This document shows, piece by piece, positions 47,945 to 60,534 of a stretch of 64,000 nucleotides of DNA. The notes beneath the pieces are model-generated. The model saw only the letters and a program-made list of their open reading frames with translations, was not told the origin of the DNA and made no database searches. The stretch's first letter is position 1. Each line of letters opens with the position of its first letter. Source of the stretch: Methanobrevibacter sp. (GTDB lineage Archaea > Methanobacteriota > Methanobacteria > Methanobacteriales > Methanobacteriaceae); contig NZ_JAFRSC010000022.1 of assembly GCF_017427765.1 (NCBI RefSeq), positions 1-64,000 of the forward strand, given 5' to 3'. The position numbers were made by a program, and so were the translations under genes.

Positions 47945-48278
47945 TCTAAAACTTAGGATCTACATATTCCCGTAAAAAAGATGTTTTACTTACAGCTCTT
48001 CTGACAACATTTCTGTAATAAAATTTGGAGTCTATGCTTAATATAAATTTGTATGATGCTTATGAAATTTTGAAATAAAATAATTACACTTTTCAAAAAA
48101 TCTCATGTTCAGGTACCATTAATTTTATCTTAAAACTAGTTGTTTTCATTATTAACTTTTGAATGCAGCATATATCAAAGGAATATCCTTTTATGATATT
48201 ATTTTTTAATTTAATTATATTAATAAAATCTTTTTCTTTAAATTTATAATATAATTGGTTTAATATTGATTTTAACAT
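47945..48278 (-). pseudogene. Probable remnant of an unidentified gene
   Basis: This part of the 548-base gap before the DUF4062 gene contains protein-like pieces on the minus strand: a 61-residue frame (48278-48093) with FKEKDFINIIKLKNNIIKGY, and after a frame change FYYRNVVRRAVSKTSFLREY ending at a stop (47945). They lack a common frame. I cannot name the family, and chance is possible in such AT-rich DNA. The remainder of the gap holds only a promoter for the next gene. Confidence 0.25.
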
Positions 48279-48396
48279 TATTTCGGGGTTATTTTTTTAT
48301 TTTGGAAATATTTATAAGGAATGACAATGTAAAATTATCATAATGAAAAATTAGATTTGATGGTTTTATTAATTGGCTCAAGTAGGTTGGATAATA

Positions 48397-49854
48397 ATGA
48401 AATATGAAGTTTTTATCAGCAGCAATCAGAGGGAATTTGAAAAAGAACGTCAAATTATTAAAAAACATTTTGAAGAAGATTATTTTTTAAAATCATTTTT
48501 CAATCCATTCCTTTTTGAGTTTTCTCCAGCTTCTGGTTTATCTCCTGAAACAACATTCTTTGAAAAGGTTAGAAAATCAGATGTTTACATTTGTTTAATA
48601 GGTTCAGACTATGGAACCGTAAAAGAAAACGGATTGTCTGCAACAGAAGAAGAATATGATGCTTTTCATATTTCAAATAAAAATTCATTTTTCTATCTTA
48701 AAAACACACCAACTCGAGATGAAAAAAGCGAAAAATTTATTTTAAAAATCCAACCTGACAATAAATATGTCTTTTTTGATGATACTGAAGAGTTAATTGA
48801 AGCTATTAAAAATAGTCTTGTAGAATTTTTAAATAGTCAAAGAAAAGACAATGATGATTTTGATAAAAAATTAGTACTCGAATCATCAATTGATGATGTG
48901 GATGATGAAGCTTACAATTTATTCTTTTCGCTATTAAAAGAGGATGATTCCTTTAATAAATTAAGGGGCAATGACGATAAGACTCATGTGTTAAAACTTA
49001 TTGGTGCTGGTGAGGATGTCAATGGTGAATTTCACCTAAACAATGCAGGAGTATTATTTTTTGCAAAGAATATCACAAAATTCATCTCTCATGAAATTAA
49101 AATGGTTAGATTTAATGGAGTGACTAAATTTGATGCTATTGATAGAGTGGATTCAAGCAGTTCCTTTTTGATATTCCTAGATGAATTTGAAAACTTCTTT
49201 AAAAAGAATACTCGATCAGGATTTTATATTGAAGGAACCAAAAGGGTAAATATTGATGAATATCCGCTTAAAGCTATTCGTGAAGCTATTATCAATGCTT
49301 TGGCTCATAGAAATTATGATATCTCCTCAAGTTTTATAGAGTTCTTTATATTCGATGATAGAATCGAAGTTATGAGTCCTGGAAAGCTCAAATATCCATT
49401 AACTATTGAAGATATTAAAAAGGATGATAGTATTGCTCATAGAAATGCATTAATCTGTGATATTTTCTATAAAACCAATTATATGGAACACATTGGCAGG
49501 GGTATATCTCAAATGACAGATGAAATGCTAAAACTAGGATTGGAAGAACCAATTTTTTCTGAAGGAAATGATTCTTTTAAAGTGGTCTTTAAAGGAAACG
49601 GTGGTGAAATTATTCCAAGAGAAAACAGTAAAAATGTTCTGAATCTATCTGATTTGGGTTTAAATCAACGCCAATTTGACATTTTAACTGAAATAGTAAA
49701 TAACAATGTTTCCATGACTTATGACGATCATATTAAAATGTTCAATACCTCAAAACCTACTGCTGAGAGAGATTTTAGAAAATTAGTCGAACTTAATTTG
49801 GTTAAAAAAACTATTGTTAACAGAAAGGCACAATTCTCATCACCAGATTATTAA
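48397..49854 (+). CDS. DUF4062 plus RecG-like ATP-binding protein
   Basis: A 485-residue three-part protein. Residues 1-145 form a DUF4062 domain (VFISSNQREFEKERQIIKKH, then CLIGSDYGTV), a sensor-like fold often found on NTPases. Residues about 160-405 resemble the RecG-like HATPase_c_4 module that usually follows an AlbA_2/Schlafen domain (IREAIINALAHRNYD, and HIGRGISQMTDEM). The end (about 420-480) is a winged helix. The AlbA_2 domain is absent and DUF4062 stands in its place. ATG 48397 is used, with AGGTTGGATA upstream; a TTG at 48373 is less likely. The role is probably regulatory or defensive; it is not a helicase. Confidence 0.72.
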   Translation: MKYEVFISSNQREFEKERQIIKKHFEEDYFLKSFFNPFLFEFSPASGLSPETTFFEKVRKSDVYICLIGSDYGTVKENGLSATEEEYDAFHISNKNSFFYLKNTPTRDEKSEKFILKIQPDNKYVFFDDTEELIEAIKNSLVEFLNSQRKDNDDFDKKLVLESSIDDVDDEAYNLFFSLLKEDDSFNKLRGNDDKTHVLKLIGAGEDVNGEFHLNNAGVLFFAKNITKFISHEIKMVRFNGVTKFDAIDRVDSSSSFLIFLDEFENFFKKNTRSGFYIEGTKRVNIDEYPLKAIREAIINALAHRNYDISSSFIEFFIFDDRIEVMSPGKLKYPLTIEDIKKDDSIAHRNALICDIFYKTNYMEHIGRGISQMTDEMLKLGLEEPIFSEGNDSFKVVFKGNGGEIIPRENSKNVLNLSDLGLNQRQFDILTEIVNNNVSMTYDDHIKMFNTSKPTAERDFRKLVELNLVKKTIVNRKAQFSSPDY

Positions 49855-50098: not shown

Positions 50099-51205
50099 TT
50101 AAGGTTCTGAATCTTTTAATAAATTTTTTAATTTAACTTCATTAATAACATGTTTTGAAACTCCATTATAACCTGGAAATAAATATTCTTCTGAATATCC
50201 ATCTAAATACAATTCATTTAAAATTTCTACTTTAAGTTCTTTAGATATGATTAATTTATATAAAATAGTATCATTTGGAGTTAAATTCGGAGGAACTGTA
50301 ATAATATTCCGATTATATGATTTTCCTTTGCTTCTGTCAGTTAGGTCATGTTTTAACTCCTCTGATATGATTTCATCTAATGGACTCTCATAATTTCCAA
50401 CATAATGATTTAAAAATGTAAATAATCCTTTTTGAGCAGTTAAGTTGGGATTAGTATTATATTCTGGCCTGTAAATAGTTAAGTTAATTGTATATTCGTT
50501 ATTTATTAGTCTATTTTCAAATAATTTATAATTTAAAGCCCATAAAACACAATCTTGTGTATTTGAATTAGATAATACATCTTTTACAGCAAAATATAAT
50601 GAAACCTTATAATCATAAGACCAATCCAATGCTTTTGTTGGTAAACCATAATGTTGAGCTAAGGATATGATTTCGGGATAATCGTAAAATATTTCATCTA
50701 ACTTTGGCGGGTGTAATTGTGAAGTGGGATGTATTAATGCTCTAGTGAACTTATTTGTGTTAACTTTTAAACCACATCTGTCAGCATAGTTAAAAAATTT
50801 TTGAAGGATATATAATTCTTTTTCATTTTGCAATTCATTTTTTGCAACAGTGTAATCCTTGTTTTTGCCTGAAGTAGGATTCCCATATTTGTCAACTTGT
50901 ATATAAAATCTTTTTTTATAATCAACTTCATCTTCATAGCATTCTAAATTTTTCTCTTTAACTTCATTCTCACTAACTTCAATCCAAAATTTTTTGTTGT
51001 TTTCAATAAGTTCATCAATTTTTAATTGGTTTAAATTATCTTTTCTAAGTGATGATGGAATTAATTCATATTTAATATCTGATACCCCTCTGAATATAAA
51101 ATCTTCACGAAGATCAATTTTATTTTCCTCATGTTTTCCATAGATTATTTTTACAAGTTCATCATAACTTTCAATTTCTATTTTATTTATCCCATTTTTT
51201 AGCAT
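50099..51205 (-). CDS. FRG domain-containing protein
   Basis: A 368-residue protein with the FRG signature: FIFRGVSDIKYELIPSSLRK near 38-57 with Phe-Arg-Gly, and ISLAQHYGLPTKALDWSYDY near 187-206, followed by YFAVKD. FRG proteins occur in phage defence and toxin loci; the domain is thought to act on nucleic acid or nucleotides but is not well characterised. It is divergent from the HEPN/Abi_C operon, with a 144-base shared promoter. The start is ATG 51205, with GGTGAGAGG upstream. No membrane segment. Confidence 0.82.
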   Translation of the reverse strand: MLKNGINKIEIESYDELVKIIYGKHEENKIDLREDFIFRGVSDIKYELIPSSLRKDNLNQLKIDELIENNKKFWIEVSENEVKEKNLECYEDEVDYKKRFYIQVDKYGNPTSGKNKDYTVAKNELQNEKELYILQKFFNYADRCGLKVNTNKFTRALIHPTSQLHPPKLDEIFYDYPEIISLAQHYGLPTKALDWSYDYKVSLYFAVKDVLSNSNTQDCVLWALNYKLFENRLINNEYTINLTIYRPEYNTNPNLTAQKGLFTFLNHYVGNYESPLDEIISEELKHDLTDRSKGKSYNRNIITVPPNLTPNDTILYKLIISKELKVEILNELYLDGYSEEYLFPGYNGVSKHVINEVKLKNLLKDSEP

Positions 51206-51349: not shown

Positions 51350-52120
51350 ATGTTTTCACCGAGAGAATTAAGTTTTTTTGAGAATTTATTTAATATGGAA
51401 TCAGGATATGTTTTGGATTTTTCAAGAGACGGATTGAAAAATTTCATTCGGGACTCAGTAAATTTGGATGTTTTCACAGTTGAATATTCAAATCAGGTTA
51501 AAAAGAGATATAGAACAGACTCTATGGTCAATACATTAAAATATTTTTGGGAAACTGAAGATTTTAGCAAAACATTAAAATTAATTAGTGATTTAGTTGA
51601 TTATTATGAATTTGAATATTATGGTGATGAAAATGAAGTTAGCGAAGCTAAAATAATTTTAAATAGATATTATAATCCTGTTAAAATTAAGAATGATTTT
51701 TCAGATGAAAAAAGAATAACTGATTTAATTAATGAGATTAATTATATAATTGATGAACGACAACCAATTTTTGCGTTAGTGGAATTGCATACATTAACAC
51801 ATAATATATTTAGACGACTTTGTGATTCTCATAATATTTCCTACACTAAAACTGATGGAATAGATTCTTTATTTAAAAAATATGCTAAATTTTTAAATCA
51901 GAATAATTATGTGGAATCACAAATGTCAAAAACCATTTTTAGAAATACAGGTACATTGTTGTCACAATTCAATGATATTAGAAATAATAAGACCTATGCA
52001 CATGACAATCCTATTTTAGACCAATTTGAAAGTGAATTCATTTATAAACAGGTTGTGAATATTTTATATTTCATTGACCTTGTTGATGATAATTTTAATA
52101 TTAAAGAAAGGGTGAAATAG
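51350..52120 (+). CDS. Abi_C/HEPN-like abortive infection protein
   Basis: A 256-residue protein whose C-terminal half (about 130-250) matches the abortive infection C-terminus (Abi_C) pattern: paired helices with LVELHTLTHNIFRRL, then FNDIRNNKTYAHDNP, in which Arg211 and His218 form an R-x6-H HEPN-type ribonuclease motif. The N-terminal part is unassigned. The gene ends one base before the next, so it is a two-gene unit. A growth-arresting ribonuclease, held in check by its partner, is a reasonable but unproven model. Confidence 0.65.
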   Translation: MFSPRELSFFENLFNMESGYVLDFSRDGLKNFIRDSVNLDVFTVEYSNQVKKRYRTDSMVNTLKYFWETEDFSKTLKLISDLVDYYEFEYYGDENEVSEAKIILNRYYNPVKIKNDFSDEKRITDLINEINYIIDERQPIFALVELHTLTHNIFRRLCDSHNISYTKTDGIDSLFKKYAKFLNQNNYVESQMSKTIFRNTGTLLSQFNDIRNNKTYAHDNPILDQFESEFIYKQVVNILYFIDLVDDNFNIKERVK

Positions 52121-54315: not shown

Positions 54316-56211
54316 ATGGTAAAAAATATGAATTTATCAAGTGGGATAATTGATAATTTGTTAAATGAATTTTCGATTCATGAAATTGAAAGTGCAGTTA
54401 TCCAATTATTTTTAGATGATAATAATGTTTCTTTTTCAAAAAATTTACTTATTAAAGAATTTATGGAGAATAATAAAAATATTGATGATATTAAAGTTGT
54501 AATTAAGAATTATTGTTCAAATTTTGATTTAAAAGCTGTTGAGAGAATTTTTGAATTATTGATACCTAAAGAGGATAGGGAAACCAATGGTGCATTTTAT
54601 ACTCCAAATATTATTATTAAATATATTGTGGATAATTGTATTACTGGTGATGAAACAGTTTGTGATCCTTCATGTGGTAGTGGGGGATTTTTATTAGAAG
54701 CTACAAAAAGAATTCAACATTTAACGAATAAATCTGTTATACAAATTTTAGAAAATAATATTTTTGGTTGTGATATTTTAGATTATGCGGTTAAACGGAC
54801 TAAGATTTTGTTAACATTGTATGCTTTATATAATTCTGAAGATACTAATCAAATAGAATTTAATATTATTAATGAAAATAGTTTATTATGTGACTGGAAC
54901 AGTATATTTCCGAATATTTTAGGTCAAAAAGGTATTTTTGCTACAAAAAAAGATTTAATTAAAGGTTTTGATGTAATTATAGGTAATCCTCCCTATTTAA
55001 GAATTCAAGATTTAGATTTAGAAACAAAACATAATCTAATTAAAAAATGGAGTAATATTAATAAAGGAAATTTTAATATATATTTTACCTTTTTTTATTT
55101 AGGGTATCAGTTACTGAAACCTAAGGGTAAATTAGGTTATATCACTCCAAATAATTTTTTTACTTCATTATCTGGAAGGAAACTAAGGGAATGGATGGTT
55201 AATAAACTTGAAATTATTATGGATTTTAAACATTTAAAAATATTTCAGGATGTTTCTACATATACTTGTATAGTAATCCTATCAAAAATAGAAAAATCTT
55301 ATTTTAAATATAAACCAATTGAAAAAAGTATTGATTTAAATTTGAATAATGAAAATCTTTCAATTATTTATGTTAAGGATTTAAACAATAAAAAATGGAG
55401 GCTATTGGAGTCTCAGGATCAGGAAAATATTAAAAAAATTGAAAATTGTGGTGAAAAATTAGGTGATTTAACTAATATTAAGGCAGGCATTGCAACATTA
55501 AAAGATAAACTATATTTTATAGATGGAGATTGTGAAGATGGTGAATTTTATTATAAAATGTTTAATAATATTTCATATCCTATTGAAAAGGAAATAACTC
55601 GCAGTATTATTAAGATTTCCACTGTAAAAAATGAAAATGATATAAAAAATAATACATTAAGAATAATTTTTCCATATTACTCTCATCCTAAAGTTCAAAT
55701 TATTCCTGAAGAGATTTTGATTAAGAAATATCCAAAATGCTATGAATATTTATATGCTATAAAAAATGAACTTTCTAAAAGGGATAAAGGAAAGAAAAAA
55801 TATGAATCCTGGTATGCATATGGTAGAAAACAAGGTGTTGATACATATGGTTTGAAATTATTAACTCCTACTTTTAGTAAGAAACCTCGTTTTTTATTGG
55901 ATTCAGATGAGTCTTCTTTGTTTTGCAATGGTTATGCTATTTTTGAAAAAAATGGTGTTGATTTAAGAATTATCCAAAAAATTTTAAATTCAATTGTTAT
56001 GGATTATTATATTAATAAAACAAGTGTGAATATTGAAGGAGGTTTTCCTTGTTTCCAAAAAAATTTCATAGAATTATTTTCAATTCCAAATTTAGATGAT
56101 AATGATAGAAATTTTTTATTAAAAGAAAAAAGTAATGAAAAAATTGATGAATTTCTAATTAAGTTATATGATTTAGATATTAAACCTCTTATTAATTTTC
56201 AGAGGCGATAA
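54316..56211 (+). CDS. Type II (Eco57I/TaqI-class) N6-adenine DNA methyltransferase
   Basis: A 631-residue gamma-class N6-adenine methyltransferase. NGAFYTPNIIIKYIVDNCIT (about 91-110), SAM motif DPSCGSGGF (about 117-125), and catalytic NPPY (224-227) are intact. From about 390 onward there is a TaqI-C-like target-recognition region (LGDLTNIKAGIATLKDKLYF, then the SWYAYGRKQGVDTYGLKLLT block). No nuclease motif is fused at the N-terminus, so cutting must be by a separate protein, possibly the convergent gene whose end it overlaps by 39 bases. Confidence 0.88.
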   Translation: MVKNMNLSSGIIDNLLNEFSIHEIESAVIQLFLDDNNVSFSKNLLIKEFMENNKNIDDIKVVIKNYCSNFDLKAVERIFELLIPKEDRETNGAFYTPNIIIKYIVDNCITGDETVCDPSCGSGGFLLEATKRIQHLTNKSVIQILENNIFGCDILDYAVKRTKILLTLYALYNSEDTNQIEFNIINENSLLCDWNSIFPNILGQKGIFATKKDLIKGFDVIIGNPPYLRIQDLDLETKHNLIKKWSNINKGNFNIYFTFFYLGYQLLKPKGKLGYITPNNFFTSLSGRKLREWMVNKLEIIMDFKHLKIFQDVSTYTCIVILSKIEKSYFKYKPIEKSIDLNLNNENLSIIYVKDLNNKKWRLLESQDQENIKKIENCGEKLGDLTNIKAGIATLKDKLYFIDGDCEDGEFYYKMFNNISYPIEKEITRSIIKISTVKNENDIKNNTLRIIFPYYSHPKVQIIPEEILIKKYPKCYEYLYAIKNELSKRDKGKKKYESWYAYGRKQGVDTYGLKLLTPTFSKKPRFLLDSDESSLFCNGYAIFEKNGVDLRIIQKILNSIVMDYYINKTSVNIEGGFPCFQKNFIELFSIPNLDDNDRNFLLKEKSNEKIDEFLIKLYDLDIKPLINFQRR

Positions 56212-57021
56212 ACTACCATGTCGTTTTTCATAACAAGTTAATAAATCTGAAACTAAATTGCTAGTATTTAATTCTTTTAAATTAATATTTTCTAGTTTTT
56301 CTTCGTCAATTAAACCAGTGTTTAATAAATCTTTATTATTTTTTATTTCTTTTGGTTTTTCATCTCTAAAATCAACAATCAATAATGCAACACGTTCATA
56401 TTTCCAATAATCTTCGTTTTTATCTTTTCGATTATTTATTTCAGAAAATGAAGGTAAATATTTTTCTAGGGGTAATTGTTCTTTCCATCCAATTTCTTTA
56501 TTTTTTATTTTTATAGGATCATATGCAAATAAAGGAACCATATATAATTCGCCCATAACTAACTCAGGACATCTTAAATGAAGATTTAATGCTTCAGCAA
56601 ATGTTCTTTCAAATAATGTATCAAAATTTTTTGCTAAACTACTTAATTGACTTCTAATATTTATAGATAAACTGACACTCATTGTGTGTTTTCCAATCTT
56701 GTCAGATTTACCTTTTAAAACCCCTCGCTCAATAATTTCAGAATAAGGATGTGAACCTAATACTGTTACATCTTGATCTTTTGTTTTTAAAAAACCAGAC
56801 ATTTTCACTTCTGGTTTTGATGAATTTAATGGAGGGTAAATATTTTCTTTGGGTATTCCTTCTAAAATCAGTTTATTCTTAACATATTCATGAATATAAT
56901 TGATTAATTGTTGGGATCTAATTAAAGAGTGTACAGATTCTTCACCACCTTTTAAAATAGCGTTTTCATAATCATTTTTTATATTTAATAATACTTCTTC
57001 TAATAATTTATCCGTAGTCAT
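56173..57021 (-). CDS. Possible type II restriction endonuclease
   Basis: A 282-residue soluble protein with no family I recognise. It lies tail-to-tail with the DNA methyltransferase and overlaps it by 39 bases, the layout expected of a cognate restriction enzyme. The segment KPEVKMSGFLKTKDQDVTVL (about 69-88), with acidic and lysine residues in a strand-like setting, is a possible PD-(D/E)xK-like site; a clear catalytic core is not visible. The C-terminus YEKRHGSLSPLKIN sits in the overlap. Moderate confidence in function, high that it is a gene. Confidence 0.55.
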   Translation of the reverse strand: MTTDKLLEEVLLNIKNDYENAILKGGEESVHSLIRSQQLINYIHEYVKNKLILEGIPKENIYPPLNSSKPEVKMSGFLKTKDQDVTVLGSHPYSEIIERGVLKGKSDKIGKHTMSVSLSINIRSQLSSLAKNFDTLFERTFAEALNLHLRCPELVMGELYMVPLFAYDPIKIKNKEIGWKEQLPLEKYLPSFSEINNRKDKNEDYWKYERVALLIVDFRDEKPKEIKNNKDLLNTGLIDEEKLENINLKELNTSNLVSDLLTCYEKRHGSLSPLKINKRFNI

Positions 57022-57239: not shown

Positions 57240-57707
57240 TCATATAAATTCACCTTTCGGTCTTGCTTTTATTCCAAATTTTTTATACATTGCTCTTGTT
57301 GTTTTATTAGACTCGATTGCTAGGTATTTTTCCGGATTATCTCCGTGAGTTGGCAGCACTGCCTTTTCAAGCCAGTATTTTTTCAATTCATGAGGTCTTT
57401 TATTGAAGTTCCAGAAGGATTCGGCTATTTTTAAATCAGTGTTTTCTTCAATGTGTTTTAGTGAATCATATGATGTGCAATATGGGCTTGCTGTGATTAG
57501 GATAATGTAGTTGTCCTTGATTAGTTCAATCAGTTGGTGCTCATATTGTCTTTTGTTGATCTTTTCAGGCAGTTTCTCATATCTGATAGGCCAGGAATTG
57601 GAGATTAATGTGTAATTTAAATCCATAAGGATTATTTTATCTTTTGGGATTGGCAGTTTTTCTGTTAATATCTTGTCTTTGGAATCGTTTTCAATCAGTT
57701 TGACCAC
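57240..57707 (-). CDS. HAD-like phosphatase-fold protein
   Basis: A 155-residue protein with HAD motif order: motif I MDLNYTLISN (residues about 28-37), motif II ILITAS (about 68-73), a lysine in KKYWLEK, and motif IV-like THGDNPEKYLAIESN. The second Asp of the usual DxDxT is Asn31, which should impair phosphatase activity. It may be a polynucleotide-kinase/phosphatase relative. It begins with GTG (57707) inside a small zinc-ribbon ORF, and no in-frame ATG precedes motif I. Confidence 0.6.
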   Translation of the reverse strand: MVKLIENDSKDKILTEKLPIPKDKIILMDLNYTLISNSWPIRYEKLPEKINKRQYEHQLIELIKDNYIILITASPYCTSYDSLKHIEENTDLKIAESFWNFNKRPHELKKYWLEKAVLPTHGDNPEKYLAIESNKTTRAMYKKFGIKARPKGEFI

Positions 57708-57774
57708 AATTTAAGCAATACTCTTCTTTGTCTTCGTTTTTTGTTTCACAAGTGGGACATATTTGAAAACTCAT
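57691..57774 (-). CDS. 27-residue zinc-ribbon micro-ORF
   Basis: ATG 57774 opens 27 codons: two CxxC pairs, CPTC at 6-9 and CLNCG at 20-24, around an acidic turn, the shape of a rubredoxin-like zinc ribbon. An AAGAAGGAATAAAA ribosome site precedes it. The last 17 bases overlap the start of the HAD-like gene in another frame, so translation of the two may be coupled. Alternatively it is the N-terminal domain of the HAD protein after a frameshift. Confidence 0.5.
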   Translation of the reverse strand: MSFQICPTCETKNEDKEEYCLNCGQTD

Positions 57775-58096
57775 TTTTATTCCTTCTTTTGATTGTACAT
57801 CTGTTTTAATATCTTCATGAAAAATCTCTCATGTTATTTGTATTCAGTAGATGAATTAGACAAATTTTAATTTGATTTCTAATAGCTACTTTTTAAAAAT
57901 TCCATTATTTACATCTTTGAAAATAATCTTAAGTGTAATAATCAAGCTTTTTTAGGTAGTTGTTGAATGGATTTAGATATGGAATAAATATGGCCGGGTT
58001 CTCGAAAATATGGGCATTTAAAATAGTAAATGCAATGTTCAAATGAATAGGTTCATATTATTAGATATCATAAAAAATACTATGTTTAAATTAAAT
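57775..58096. other. Non-coding stretch upstream of the HAD unit
   Basis: About 320 AT-rich bases with no convincing ORF. It must contain the promoter for the minus-strand micro-ORF/HAD unit; a TATA-like sequence near 57860-57890 is possible but not clear. Confidence 0.3.
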
Positions 58097-58113
58097 AAGG
58101 GATGTAATCCCTT
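58097..58113. terminator. Hairpin AAGGGAT-GTA-ATCCCTT
   Basis: A perfect 7-bp stem with a 3-base loop, followed by TTAAATTAA on the plus strand. It lies 430 bases beyond the integrase end and could end integrase or upstream transcription; its true direction is not clear. Confidence 0.4.
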
Positions 58114-58184
58114 TTAAATTAATCATTCTTTATGTTGATTATTTGTAGTCTTATGATTTCATAATATTGTGATGTTAATTTTAT

Positions 58185-58500
58185 AAAAACCATAAAAACT
58201 ATTGAGAAATTTTGGGATGGTTTTTTTAAATAGCTTTTAGAATCCTTTAAATCAAAAAAAGAATGGTTATTATCACTTTTCAAGATTACGATTTTTTAAA
58301 AAACCATATTTTTTCAGAGTATGTGGGAGGACTTGTCAAAGTTACCTCCCCCTTACCCCTGAAACTTCAGTTTTTTTACAAAAACCACATCACCAAAACT
58401 TATGTAAAATCCTTCAATTAATCTAAAAATAATTATAAACGATTTTTTAAAAAAACTTTACAAAAGTTTTTTAAAGTTTACATAGTTTTTATGGTTTTTT
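58185..58500. repeat. Repeat-rich non-coding region flanked by an 18-base inverted repeat
   Basis: AAAAACCATAAAAACTAT (58185-58202) recurs perfectly inverted at 58482-58499, 279 bases apart. Between them are further AAAAACCAT-like sites in both orientations: ATGGTTTTTTT at 58217, AAAAAACCAT at 58298-58307, AAAAACCA at 58380-58387. A hairpin AAAAAACTTT-ACA-AAAGTTTTTT (58450-58472) lies near the right end. The layout, directly downstream of the recombinase gene, resembles an attachment region with arm-type sites or a replication origin; neither is proven. Confidence 0.55.
58325..58350. repeat. GC-rich hairpin
   Basis: GGGAGG-ACTT-GTCA-AAGT-TA-CCTCCC folds as a 10-bp stem with a two-base bulge and is followed by CCCTTACCCC. 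It is strikingly GC-rich against its surroundings. Confidence 0.55.
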
Positions 58501-58539
58501 TACCAAAGTCAAATCTATCAAAATTAAACCTTGGCATCA

Positions 58540-59679
58540 TCACATTTCTTCAATCATCTCCATGATGCCCCGGACTGTTTTCTTCAAATCATATATCTCC
58601 TCAATTTCATTCCTCATTTTATTCATTTCTGTTTTTAAGGATTGATTTTCTTTTTCCATTTGCATAAACTCCGGGGATTTGATAGATATCTTTTCAATCT
58701 CTTTGCCTATTGTAACCGCAGGCAGATGTTGAATATAATCATACTTCAAATCTTCAGGATTGATTAGAAAATATGCCTGATCTGTTTTGTTTTTGGCCTT
58801 GCCCTGCAGGTCATTAACCTTGTCCAAACTCATGCCGTCATTGTATAAGGCTGATGCATGGAATTTCCTAAGCATGTGGCTTCTGAAGCGATTGTATTTT
58901 TCTACTTTTCCAAGACCCAAATAATCATTGATTTTTTGAAAATTATTTATTAAATATTGTGGATGTGTCTTAAATAATGTACTTTCATTGGTTAATGGGT
59001 CTGTGCGTGTTAAAAGGTAAGTGTTAATCGCTTTTACAGCTTCGGGACTGCAATATGTTGTATAATATTTGTTTGTTTTAATTCTTTTAATGTTGAAAGT
59101 AGGAACGACATTGTCGTTTTTATTGGTAATGCCAATTATTTCATAGATGTTCCTGCATTTTTGAGGCACATATTCAGATAGTGCATTGATATATTCTAGA
59201 ATTGTCAAATTTAAAGTTTCAGCTCTTCCGCAACCGCTGGAGCAAATAAACAATATTATTGCTTTCATAAATGGTGATGCGATGCTTACAGCTTCCCTTA
59301 TGATTTCCTTATCTGGCAAATCCTTAAAATAAATCGGTTGTGCTTTTTGCATTGACTTTTCATTTATCATAGGCAATTTCTGTATTTCAATATCATAGAA
59401 TCTGTAAAATTTATTTATGGCAATCATGTGTTTTTTGACTGTGTTTAAAGCATATTTTTGTAGAAGGTGGTGTCTGTATTCTGTTAGTTTTGCTTTTACA
59501 CGGCGACGTTTCCATTTGATATTGTTGTTTTCATCTTCTTCTGCTTCAGCTAATAGTTCATGCAGATTCTGATTAAAATAGGAAGCATAGTTGGTCAATG
59601 CTAGTCTATATATTCGTTGTGTTTCCTCCGAGTGGTTACAACTTATGGCTAGGTTTTTCAACAGTTCGTTATTATTCAT
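58540..59679 (-). CDS. Tyrosine recombinase/integrase
   Basis: A 379-residue phage-type integrase. A SAM-like core-binding domain (about 10-115) precedes the catalytic domain: Arg152 in SSGCGRAETLNL, Lys201/204 in IKRIKTNKYY, His268 and Arg271 in SHMLRKFHAS, and nucleophile Tyr303 in DQAYFLINPEDLK. The usual second His of LGH is Gly in DLQGK. A coiled-coil tail (about 340-379) follows the Tyr. ATG 59679 is used, with AAAGGTGTTAACT upstream; an upstream frame to 59760 lacks a good start. It stands next to rio1 at the island's right edge. Confidence 0.88.
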   Translation of the reverse strand: MNNNELLKNLAISCNHSEETQRIYRLALTNYASYFNQNLHELLAEAEEDENNNIKWKRRRVKAKLTEYRHHLLQKYALNTVKKHMIAINKFYRFYDIEIQKLPMINEKSMQKAQPIYFKDLPDKEIIREAVSIASPFMKAIILFICSSGCGRAETLNLTILEYINALSEYVPQKCRNIYEIIGITNKNDNVVPTFNIKRIKTNKYYTTYCSPEAVKAINTYLLTRTDPLTNESTLFKTHPQYLINNFQKINDYLGLGKVEKYNRFRSHMLRKFHASALYNDGMSLDKVNDLQGKAKNKTDQAYFLINPEDLKYDYIQHLPAVTIGKEIEKISIKSPEFMQMEKENQSLKTEMNKMRNEIEEIYDLKKTVRGIMEMIEEM

Positions 59680-59680
59680 A

Positions 59681-59718
59681 GTTAACACCTTTATAGTTTT
59701 TCTATAAAAAATGTTAAC
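59681..59718. promoter_or_regulatory. Nested palindrome over the integrase promoter
   Basis: GTTAACA (59681-59687) and TGTTAAC (59712-59718) form outer arms, with TTTATAG-TTTTT-CTATAAA (59690-59708) nested inside. It covers the TATA-like box and the ribosome site and ends one base before the integrase ATG. Binding by the integrase or a dedicated repressor could switch the gene off. Confidence 0.55.
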
Positions 59719-59720
59719 AG

Positions 59721-59743
59721 AGAGAGCATTTGAGAAGTATTTT
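59721..59743 (-). repeat. Copy D of the 19-base promoter element
   Basis: On the minus strand the core is TACTTCTCAAATGCTCTCT, preceded by AAAA. It ends 41 bases before the integrase start and directly abuts the nested palindrome, 20 bases from the rio1 stop. Confidence 0.7.
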
Positions 59744-59763
59744 TCATCTAAGTAAAACATCTT

Positions 59764-60534
59764 TTACCAAGGATTAACATATTCCCAAATTTCTTTAAAA
59801 TTAGTTTCAACGCCCAGTTTTGTATATTCTCTAACCAGGGTGTTCATGTCTCGTTCAAGAAGTTCTTTTGAAATTGGGTTATCCAACACGACAGATTGTG
59901 AAACATCAATGATTACCGGTTCTTCGTTTAAATTTAAGATATTGTAGTTGGACAAGTCTCCATGAACTAATTTTGCTTCACGAACGAATAATTTGAGCTG
60001 TACCAATAATTTGTTAAAGAATTCATCCGGATTTTTTGGTGGCTGGTTTTTGACCGGCTGTGCGGGGTTGCCGTTTTCATCTCCAATAAATTCAATAATC
60101 AAAACATTGTTGGCACTTGTAAACGGTTTTGGCACATTTACTCCTGCATCATACAATCTTGTTAAGTTTTTAAATTCTTTTGTAACCCAGGAATAAATTA
60201 TTTTCCTTTTATTTTTGGTTTTGATGTTAAATCTCGGATCTCCTTTAAGGTAATAGTCCATTTTTTTAAAATCAGAAGTGGCTATTCTGTAAATTTTAAC
60301 GGCCACAAAACTTTCATCGTCTCTAATGCCTGTAAGTACATTTGCTTCTTTACCTGTACTTATGGCTCCGTTTAAAACGTCAATGAATCCCTGATTTGCT
60401 AATTTGTATAATGTTTCTAATGTTATTTTGTCAAAAATTTCATTTCCTACTTTTCTCTCGGAACTGTCTTTTTTCCTTTTTCGGGAATGCAATTTTTCAT
60501 GAGCTGCATCTGCTTTAGCAATCTTGGAATCCAT
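59764..60534 (-). CDS. rio1: RIO1-type serine/threonine kinase/ATPase
   Basis: Atypical kinase that acts in late small-subunit maturation. In the 256 residues are the flexible nucleotide loop STGKEANVL (about 59-67), VAVKIYRI with the catalytic Lys, catalytic loop LVHGDLSNYNIL (about 193-204), and metal-binding IIDVSQSV. Lys/Arg-rich N-terminus. Its usual partner KH gene is separated by the island. 28 bases downstream of eIF1A. Confidence 0.94.
   Translation of the reverse strand: MDSKIAKADAAHEKLHSRKRKKDSSERKVGNEIFDKITLETLYKLANQGFIDVLNGAISTGKEANVLTGIRDDESFVAVKIYRIATSDFKKMDYYLKGDPRFNIKTKNKRKIIYSWVTKEFKNLTRLYDAGVNVPKPFTSANNVLIIEFIGDENGNPAQPVKNQPPKNPDEFFNKLLVQLKLFVREAKLVHGDLSNYNILNLNEEPVIIDVSQSVVLDNPISKELLERDMNTLVREYTKLGVETNFKEIWEYVNPW

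Follow-up and report, generated by a model that had tools for sequence, protein, structure and literature searches.

The Origin-Like Region

We analyzed a window of 64,000 nucleotides (positions 1 to 64,000, forward strand, of contig NZ_JAFRSC010000022.1, assembly GCF_017427765.1) from a Methanobrevibacter sp., here called G000. Next to an integrase gene it contains a non-coding region of about 320 bp that resembles a virus-type replication origin, and the two lie in an element inserted at the host gene for RIO1 kinase. The region (minus strand) has its natural limits at 58182-58502, where it is bounded by inverted repeats: a perfect 18-mer at 58185-58202 and 58482-58499, with 279 nt between the arms, which repeat finding extended to arms of 21 nt with 95% match (58182-58202, plus; 58482-58502, minus). 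The motif AAAAACCAT occurs four times, twice per strand, in the two outer arms (58185, plus; 58491, minus) and as inner iterons at 58217-58225 (minus) and 58299-58307 (plus); a variant iteron, AAAAACCAC, follows at 58380-58388 (plus). There are also a central G+C-rich hairpin at about 58308-58367 (minus) and an A/T-rich palindrome, able to form a hairpin, at 58446-58475 (no strand).

A preliminary description of this DNA had reported the inverted repeat, AAAAACCAT sites in the two orientations and the two hairpins; all of them are in place and exceed chance expectation in shuffled sequence. In 300 dinucleotide shuffles of the stretch, the longest perfect repeat at the spacing of the inverted repeat was mostly 9-10 nt and never more than 14; AAAAACCAT is expected 0.057 times, and none of 2,000 shuffles reached four copies. 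A 9-mer is over-represented in the window origin (p 0.005), and the minus strand folds far better than shuffles do (z = -5.6). A known RNA family was considered and rejected, the stretch having matched no family in Rfam.

Homologous Copies and the Putative Replication Gene

A DNA search of 41 genomes, then of 67 congeners, recovered full-length homologues of the region, mostly at 71-94% identity. At loci that include the neighboring gene, the region lies directly 3' of a gene for a protein of about 564 amino acids (Rep) and 5' of an open reading frame (ORF) of about 107 amino acids (ORF107), which has the orientation of the region. Tailed proviruses account for some of these loci: in G067:C44 and G049:C49, Pfam recognizes the terminase large subunit (TerL) on the contig that carries the region. 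In G000:C56, G003, and G015, rep, origin, and ORF107 are present, and an intact terminase was not found on the stretches read. The central hairpin recurs, with other letters in its stem, in 18 more origin copies, as judged by a model built partly from those same sequences.

Rep is AAA+-like and may have a winged helix at its C terminus. We infer that it is a replication protein because of its P-loop (GEASSGKS), its weak AAA_16 and winged-helix scores, the iterons, and a neighboring gene of about 201 amino acids that we take for a single-strand-annealing protein (SSAP). No near relative of Rep or of the window integrase was found in the phage and IMG/VR collections searched; one IMG/VR pattern match (L243), which resembled none of rep, ORF107, integrase, SSAP, and TerL, was taken as chance.

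The dominant repeat beside 20 Reps falls into five classes: AAAAACCAT, AAATACCAT, GTCTTTTCA-like, GGCAATGAA, and TAGCGACAA. On the Rep tree these require four changes, the minimum for five classes, and even Reps that are 42% identical have unrelated iterons at the same position. A 9-mer is over-represented in most of the origin copies tested; a handful were not significant (p 0.055-0.965), and their class was assigned by position and variants. The copies thus combine several short repeats near an initiator gene, in a non-coding, A/T-rich stretch, with a repeat that appears, from its congruence with the Rep tree, to be specific to the initiator; in the window the initiator gene is absent. From these comparisons, there is good support for assigning the 320-bp region as the putative iteron-type replication origin of a family of tailed Methanobrevibacter proviruses. 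The suggestion in the preliminary description that it is the origin of an excised form stands in part, as the region appears to be the iteron-bearing, origin-like part of a replication module belonging to a provirus.

Two other roles may be weighed here. The sites might bind Rep or another regulator that controls ORF107 or the rep operon, rather than start replication. Plasmid iterons often double as autoregulation sites, which provides a precedent, and the region does lie 5' of ORF107 in the same orientation; however, it is retained in the window and in a second genome, G066, from which ORF107 and rep are gone, and its sites flank the hairpin core on both sides over 320 bp. We consider an operator or promoter improbable. 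A length of about 320 bp and terminal inverted repeats would also suit a miniature inverted-repeat transposable element (a non-autonomous transposon). This we rejected as scarcely credible, since G000 holds a single full-length copy, the gene context elsewhere is fixed, and in homologous loci conservation continues beyond the terminal repeats into the flanks.

In G044 (C1:435309-442130, L115), a 2,273-amino-acid DUF4011/MTES_1575 helicase-nuclease (PADLOC PDC-S37) lies between ORF107 and a portal-like gene and is a defence cargo site inside a provirus. A second integrative element of the window genome (G000:C56:82450-97728, L121) encodes an integrase, an N6-methylase, toxin-antitoxin-like genes, and a helicase, and has an GTCTTTTCA-type origin with a frameshifted rep.

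An Integrated Element at RIO1

The integrase gene (58540-59760, minus) has an intact frame for a tyrosine recombinase of 406 amino acids (Pfam PF00589, E 1e-9), whose relatives in the collection searched come almost all from rumen and gut Methanobrevibacter metagenome-assembled genomes. The host target, the RIO1 kinase gene (59764-60534, minus), ends in NPW* instead of the NPKF* that is usual in empty relatives; the NPW* ending is found in G000 and G066. The left attachment (att) site, attL (59745-59790, minus), consists of the RIO1 3' end, GGGAATATGTTAATCC, and the element flank, TTGGTAAAAGATGTTTTACTTAG; attR (47947-47989, minus) consists of the flank GTAAAACATCTTTTTTAC and a duplicated RIO1 3' end. 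This second copy of the RIO1 end, at 47947-47972, bears the same flanking repeat inverted, and the two copies with their inverted flanking repeats therefore delimit an element of about 11.8 kb.

The preliminary description had read the 320-bp region as an integrase attachment region with AAAAACCAT arm-type sites. It does adjoin the integrase gene in the window and in G066, but the att core is duplicated at 47947 and about 59770, not at 58185-58500; attL and attR, both at copies of the RIO1 3' end, are 1.2 kb and 10 kb distant, and the repeat that flanks them is another one, GTAAAACATCTTT / AAAGATGTTTTAC. Moreover, the region elsewhere adjoins rep, kilobases from the integrase, and the integrases next in similarity (identity of about 66% or less) all lack downstream AAAAACCAT repeats, contrary to the expectation that it would accompany homologous integrases. 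An attachment role, rejected once attL and attR were found, is very unlikely.

Of the 67 genomes, 14 have matches to sites like these att sites, mostly downstream of RIO1, and this place therefore appears to be an integration hot spot. On one side the element is followed by RIO1, eIF1A, and moeA-like genes (moeA named by eye). An attR-like scar right after an intact RIO1 gene in G019 (C13:15204-15231, L197) is evidence of past occupancy there.

The remainder of the element is mostly cargo. A type II restriction enzyme (56173-57021, minus; PADLOC E 2e-73) is adjacent to an Eco57I-like type II DNA methyltransferase (54316-56211, plus), and these are accompanied by an Abi_C domain protein (51350-52120, plus), an FRG-domain protein (PDC-S15; 50099-51205, minus), and a DUF4062/HATPase_c_4 protein (48373-49854, plus), of which a DUF4062-like counterpart occurs in the G053 RIO1 island. 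A search of the window by tblastn with nine provirus proteins gave no match to rep, ORF107, the small or large terminase subunit (TerS, TerL), portal, or protease. By alignment, a decayed start of the ORF of about 107 amino acids that trails the origin in proviruses is present at 58128-58165 (minus). An ORF for a NIF-like phosphatase (57240-57707, minus) appears by eye to be a frame-broken copy of a gene combining a zinc ribbon and NIF; this gene, split by an apparent frameshift in the window (57240-57780), has an intact relative of 183 amino acids on the provirus contig G049:C49.

Sibling Elements and Their Divergence

The unit common to different genomes, at about 57807-59763 (minus), comprises the integrase gene, the origin, and the left flank. 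It is shared with G066:C4, a second species, at 92-97% identity, compared with 78-90% for host genes. The G066 unit also lies at RIO1, with 17.8 kb between its att sites, and its cargo is wholly different: another type II system, a kinase-TPR protein, and a PDC-S31 protein. Third codon positions of the integrase differ between the window and G066 at 15% (61 of 406), against 27% in eIF1A and 35-46% in RIO1, moeA, and two further host genes; the unit therefore seems to have spread after the hosts split. The origin (18 differences in 319 positions; Fisher p 6e-5) and the left flank (11 in 375; p 2e-9) have diverged three to five times more slowly than the integrase third positions, although recombination of pieces of different ages could also be the source of this difference.

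G066 is the only other genome in which the full region was found beside the integrase. In a third sibling at RIO1 (G061:C120, L192), an 88%-identical integrase is accompanied by an MCM helicase gene in the origin's place. Replication modules appear to swap between RIO1 elements. About a dozen RIO1 islands read gave no virion-gene match of this provirus type, except for a TerL fragment with stops in G061.

Terminase DNA beside the Putative Origin

The window retains two remnants of TerL DNA next to the origin, at 57864-57915 (plus; about amino acids 276-296) and 57919-58030 (plus; about amino acids 403-437). The same TerL region is present in six other elements as a piece of roughly 516 nt with 9-12 in-frame stops, nearly without length changes in four of the six, and the two blocks in the window are those retained in G008 and partly in G065. 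Such a stop-filled, length-conserved fragment (L077:3790-4330 and homologues) is thus found in at least six integrative elements. Divergence of the piece between G015 and G000:C56 (19%) is lower than that of rep third positions (28%). Synonymous conservation among 13 intact TerL genes is 0.70-0.74 in the retained blocks versus 0.66, and is equally raised elsewhere in the gene. The stop-filled DNA is a possible packaging site; another reading is that it is old pseudogene DNA.

A Proposed Satellite or a Provirus Remnant

In the joint explanation that we propose, and think likely, the region is an iteron origin of virus type that has lost its rep gene, and the 11.8-kb element that carries it moves as a satellite. 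In the provirus family, a clade-specific Rep would bind the inverted AAAAAC[C/T]AT sites that flank the core on each side, and unwinding or loading would take place between them, at the central hairpin and the A/T-rich palindrome. In the lineage of the window, rep would have been lost and the origin joined to the 3' end of the integrase gene, in an element inserted into the RIO1 3' end with a restriction system and other defence-type genes and no virion genes. From its intact att sites and ORF, the integrase may excise the element, with a predicted junction GTAAAACATCTTTTTTAC-GGGAATATGT-NNATCC-TTGGTAAAAGATGTTTTAC, and its replication from the origin may then be carried out by a helper virus whose Rep matches.

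Several observations weigh against this proposal. Database similarity of Rep is weak (AAA_16, E 0.009; winged helix, E 0.014), and a relationship to MCM, at an hhalign probability of 0.2%, is not claimed. The score for hairpin covariation was reached by 3 of 500 shuffles, and a partner slid by one column scores almost equally, so the signal is modest and in part a register effect. A matching Rep is absent in G066 and G000; of the Reps in G000, one is frameshifted and has another iteron type and one is distant. Origin-bearing elements that lack rep occur in only two of the 67 genomes, and in G066 two outer iterons carry a substitution, which fits slow decay.

Some of these points would favor a defective provirus remnant at RIO1, in which replication and structural genes were deleted, the origin is a functionless leftover, and defence genes came later to the hot spot. 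Collinearity with the proviruses, the decayed ORF107 start and TerL scraps adjoining the origin, the altered outer iterons of G066, and the lack of a cognate Rep in either genome all agree with such a history. Against it, two species share the same deleted unit, 92-97% identical, beside different cargo, the integrase frame is intact, and divergence is slower in the origin than at third positions of the integrase. A remnant is a serious contender, with a probability somewhat short of even. For the satellite proposal, the limits of the element, its att sites, the homology to virus-associated origins, the congruence of iterons with Rep, and the lack of homologues of rep, terminase, portal, and protease are properties of the sequence itself; the element's functioning as a satellite is plausible.

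Comparison with Known Systems

Bacteria are well known to harbor satellites of tailed viruses that carry defence genes as cargo. In archaea, the Sulfolobus elements pSSVi and pSSVx use a virus as helper; their helpers are spindle viruses, and their genes differ from those of the window element. That archaeal viruses have satellites has been reviewed (PMC11389934). We found no report of satellites in methanogens in the literature searched, and the novelty of the element is provisional. Among tailed viruses of the Methanobacteriales (vir249, BK063678; MSTV1), vir249 encodes a 29%-identical relative of Rep.

Phage-inducible chromosomal islands (PICIs; PMC6092414) offer a bacterial comparison for an element whose host is an archaeon. 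They resemble it in having an integrase, an att site of their own, a length of about 15 kb, and no structural genes: the window and G066 elements combine an integrase with a specific att site, measure 11.8 and 17.8 kb, and have no terminase, portal, or protease match of this provirus type, TerL scraps aside. A PICI, however, carries its own pri-rep next to its origin, together with a master regulator, whereas the element in the window has the origin without rep, and no master regulator was recognized among the window genes. PICIs also occupy att sites that proviruses do not use, and they are induced and packaged by a helper. Salmonella genomic island 1 (SGI1) with IncC plasmids (PMC7433901) and the PICI-like elements (PLE) with phage ICP1 (PMC7145576) are likewise integrated islands with replication tied to a helper; unlike the window element, they are bacterial and experimentally shown, and their sequences are unrelated to it.

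More broadly, we suggest tentatively, and think it on balance unlikely, that gut Methanobrevibacter hosts a family of satellites of archaeal tailed viruses, with an integrase, a helper-specific origin without rep, a piece of the helper's TerL gene that is full of stops yet constant in length and is retained as DNA, perhaps as a packaging site, and exchangeable antiviral cargo at RIO1. The five classes of iteron-Rep pairs make the origin specificity of archaeal tailed viruses testable. Possibly the element is a "virus of a virus" that uses machinery borrowed from its helper; if it is a true satellite, it would provide a direct handle on the movement of antiviral genes among the methane-making archaea of the rumen and gut.
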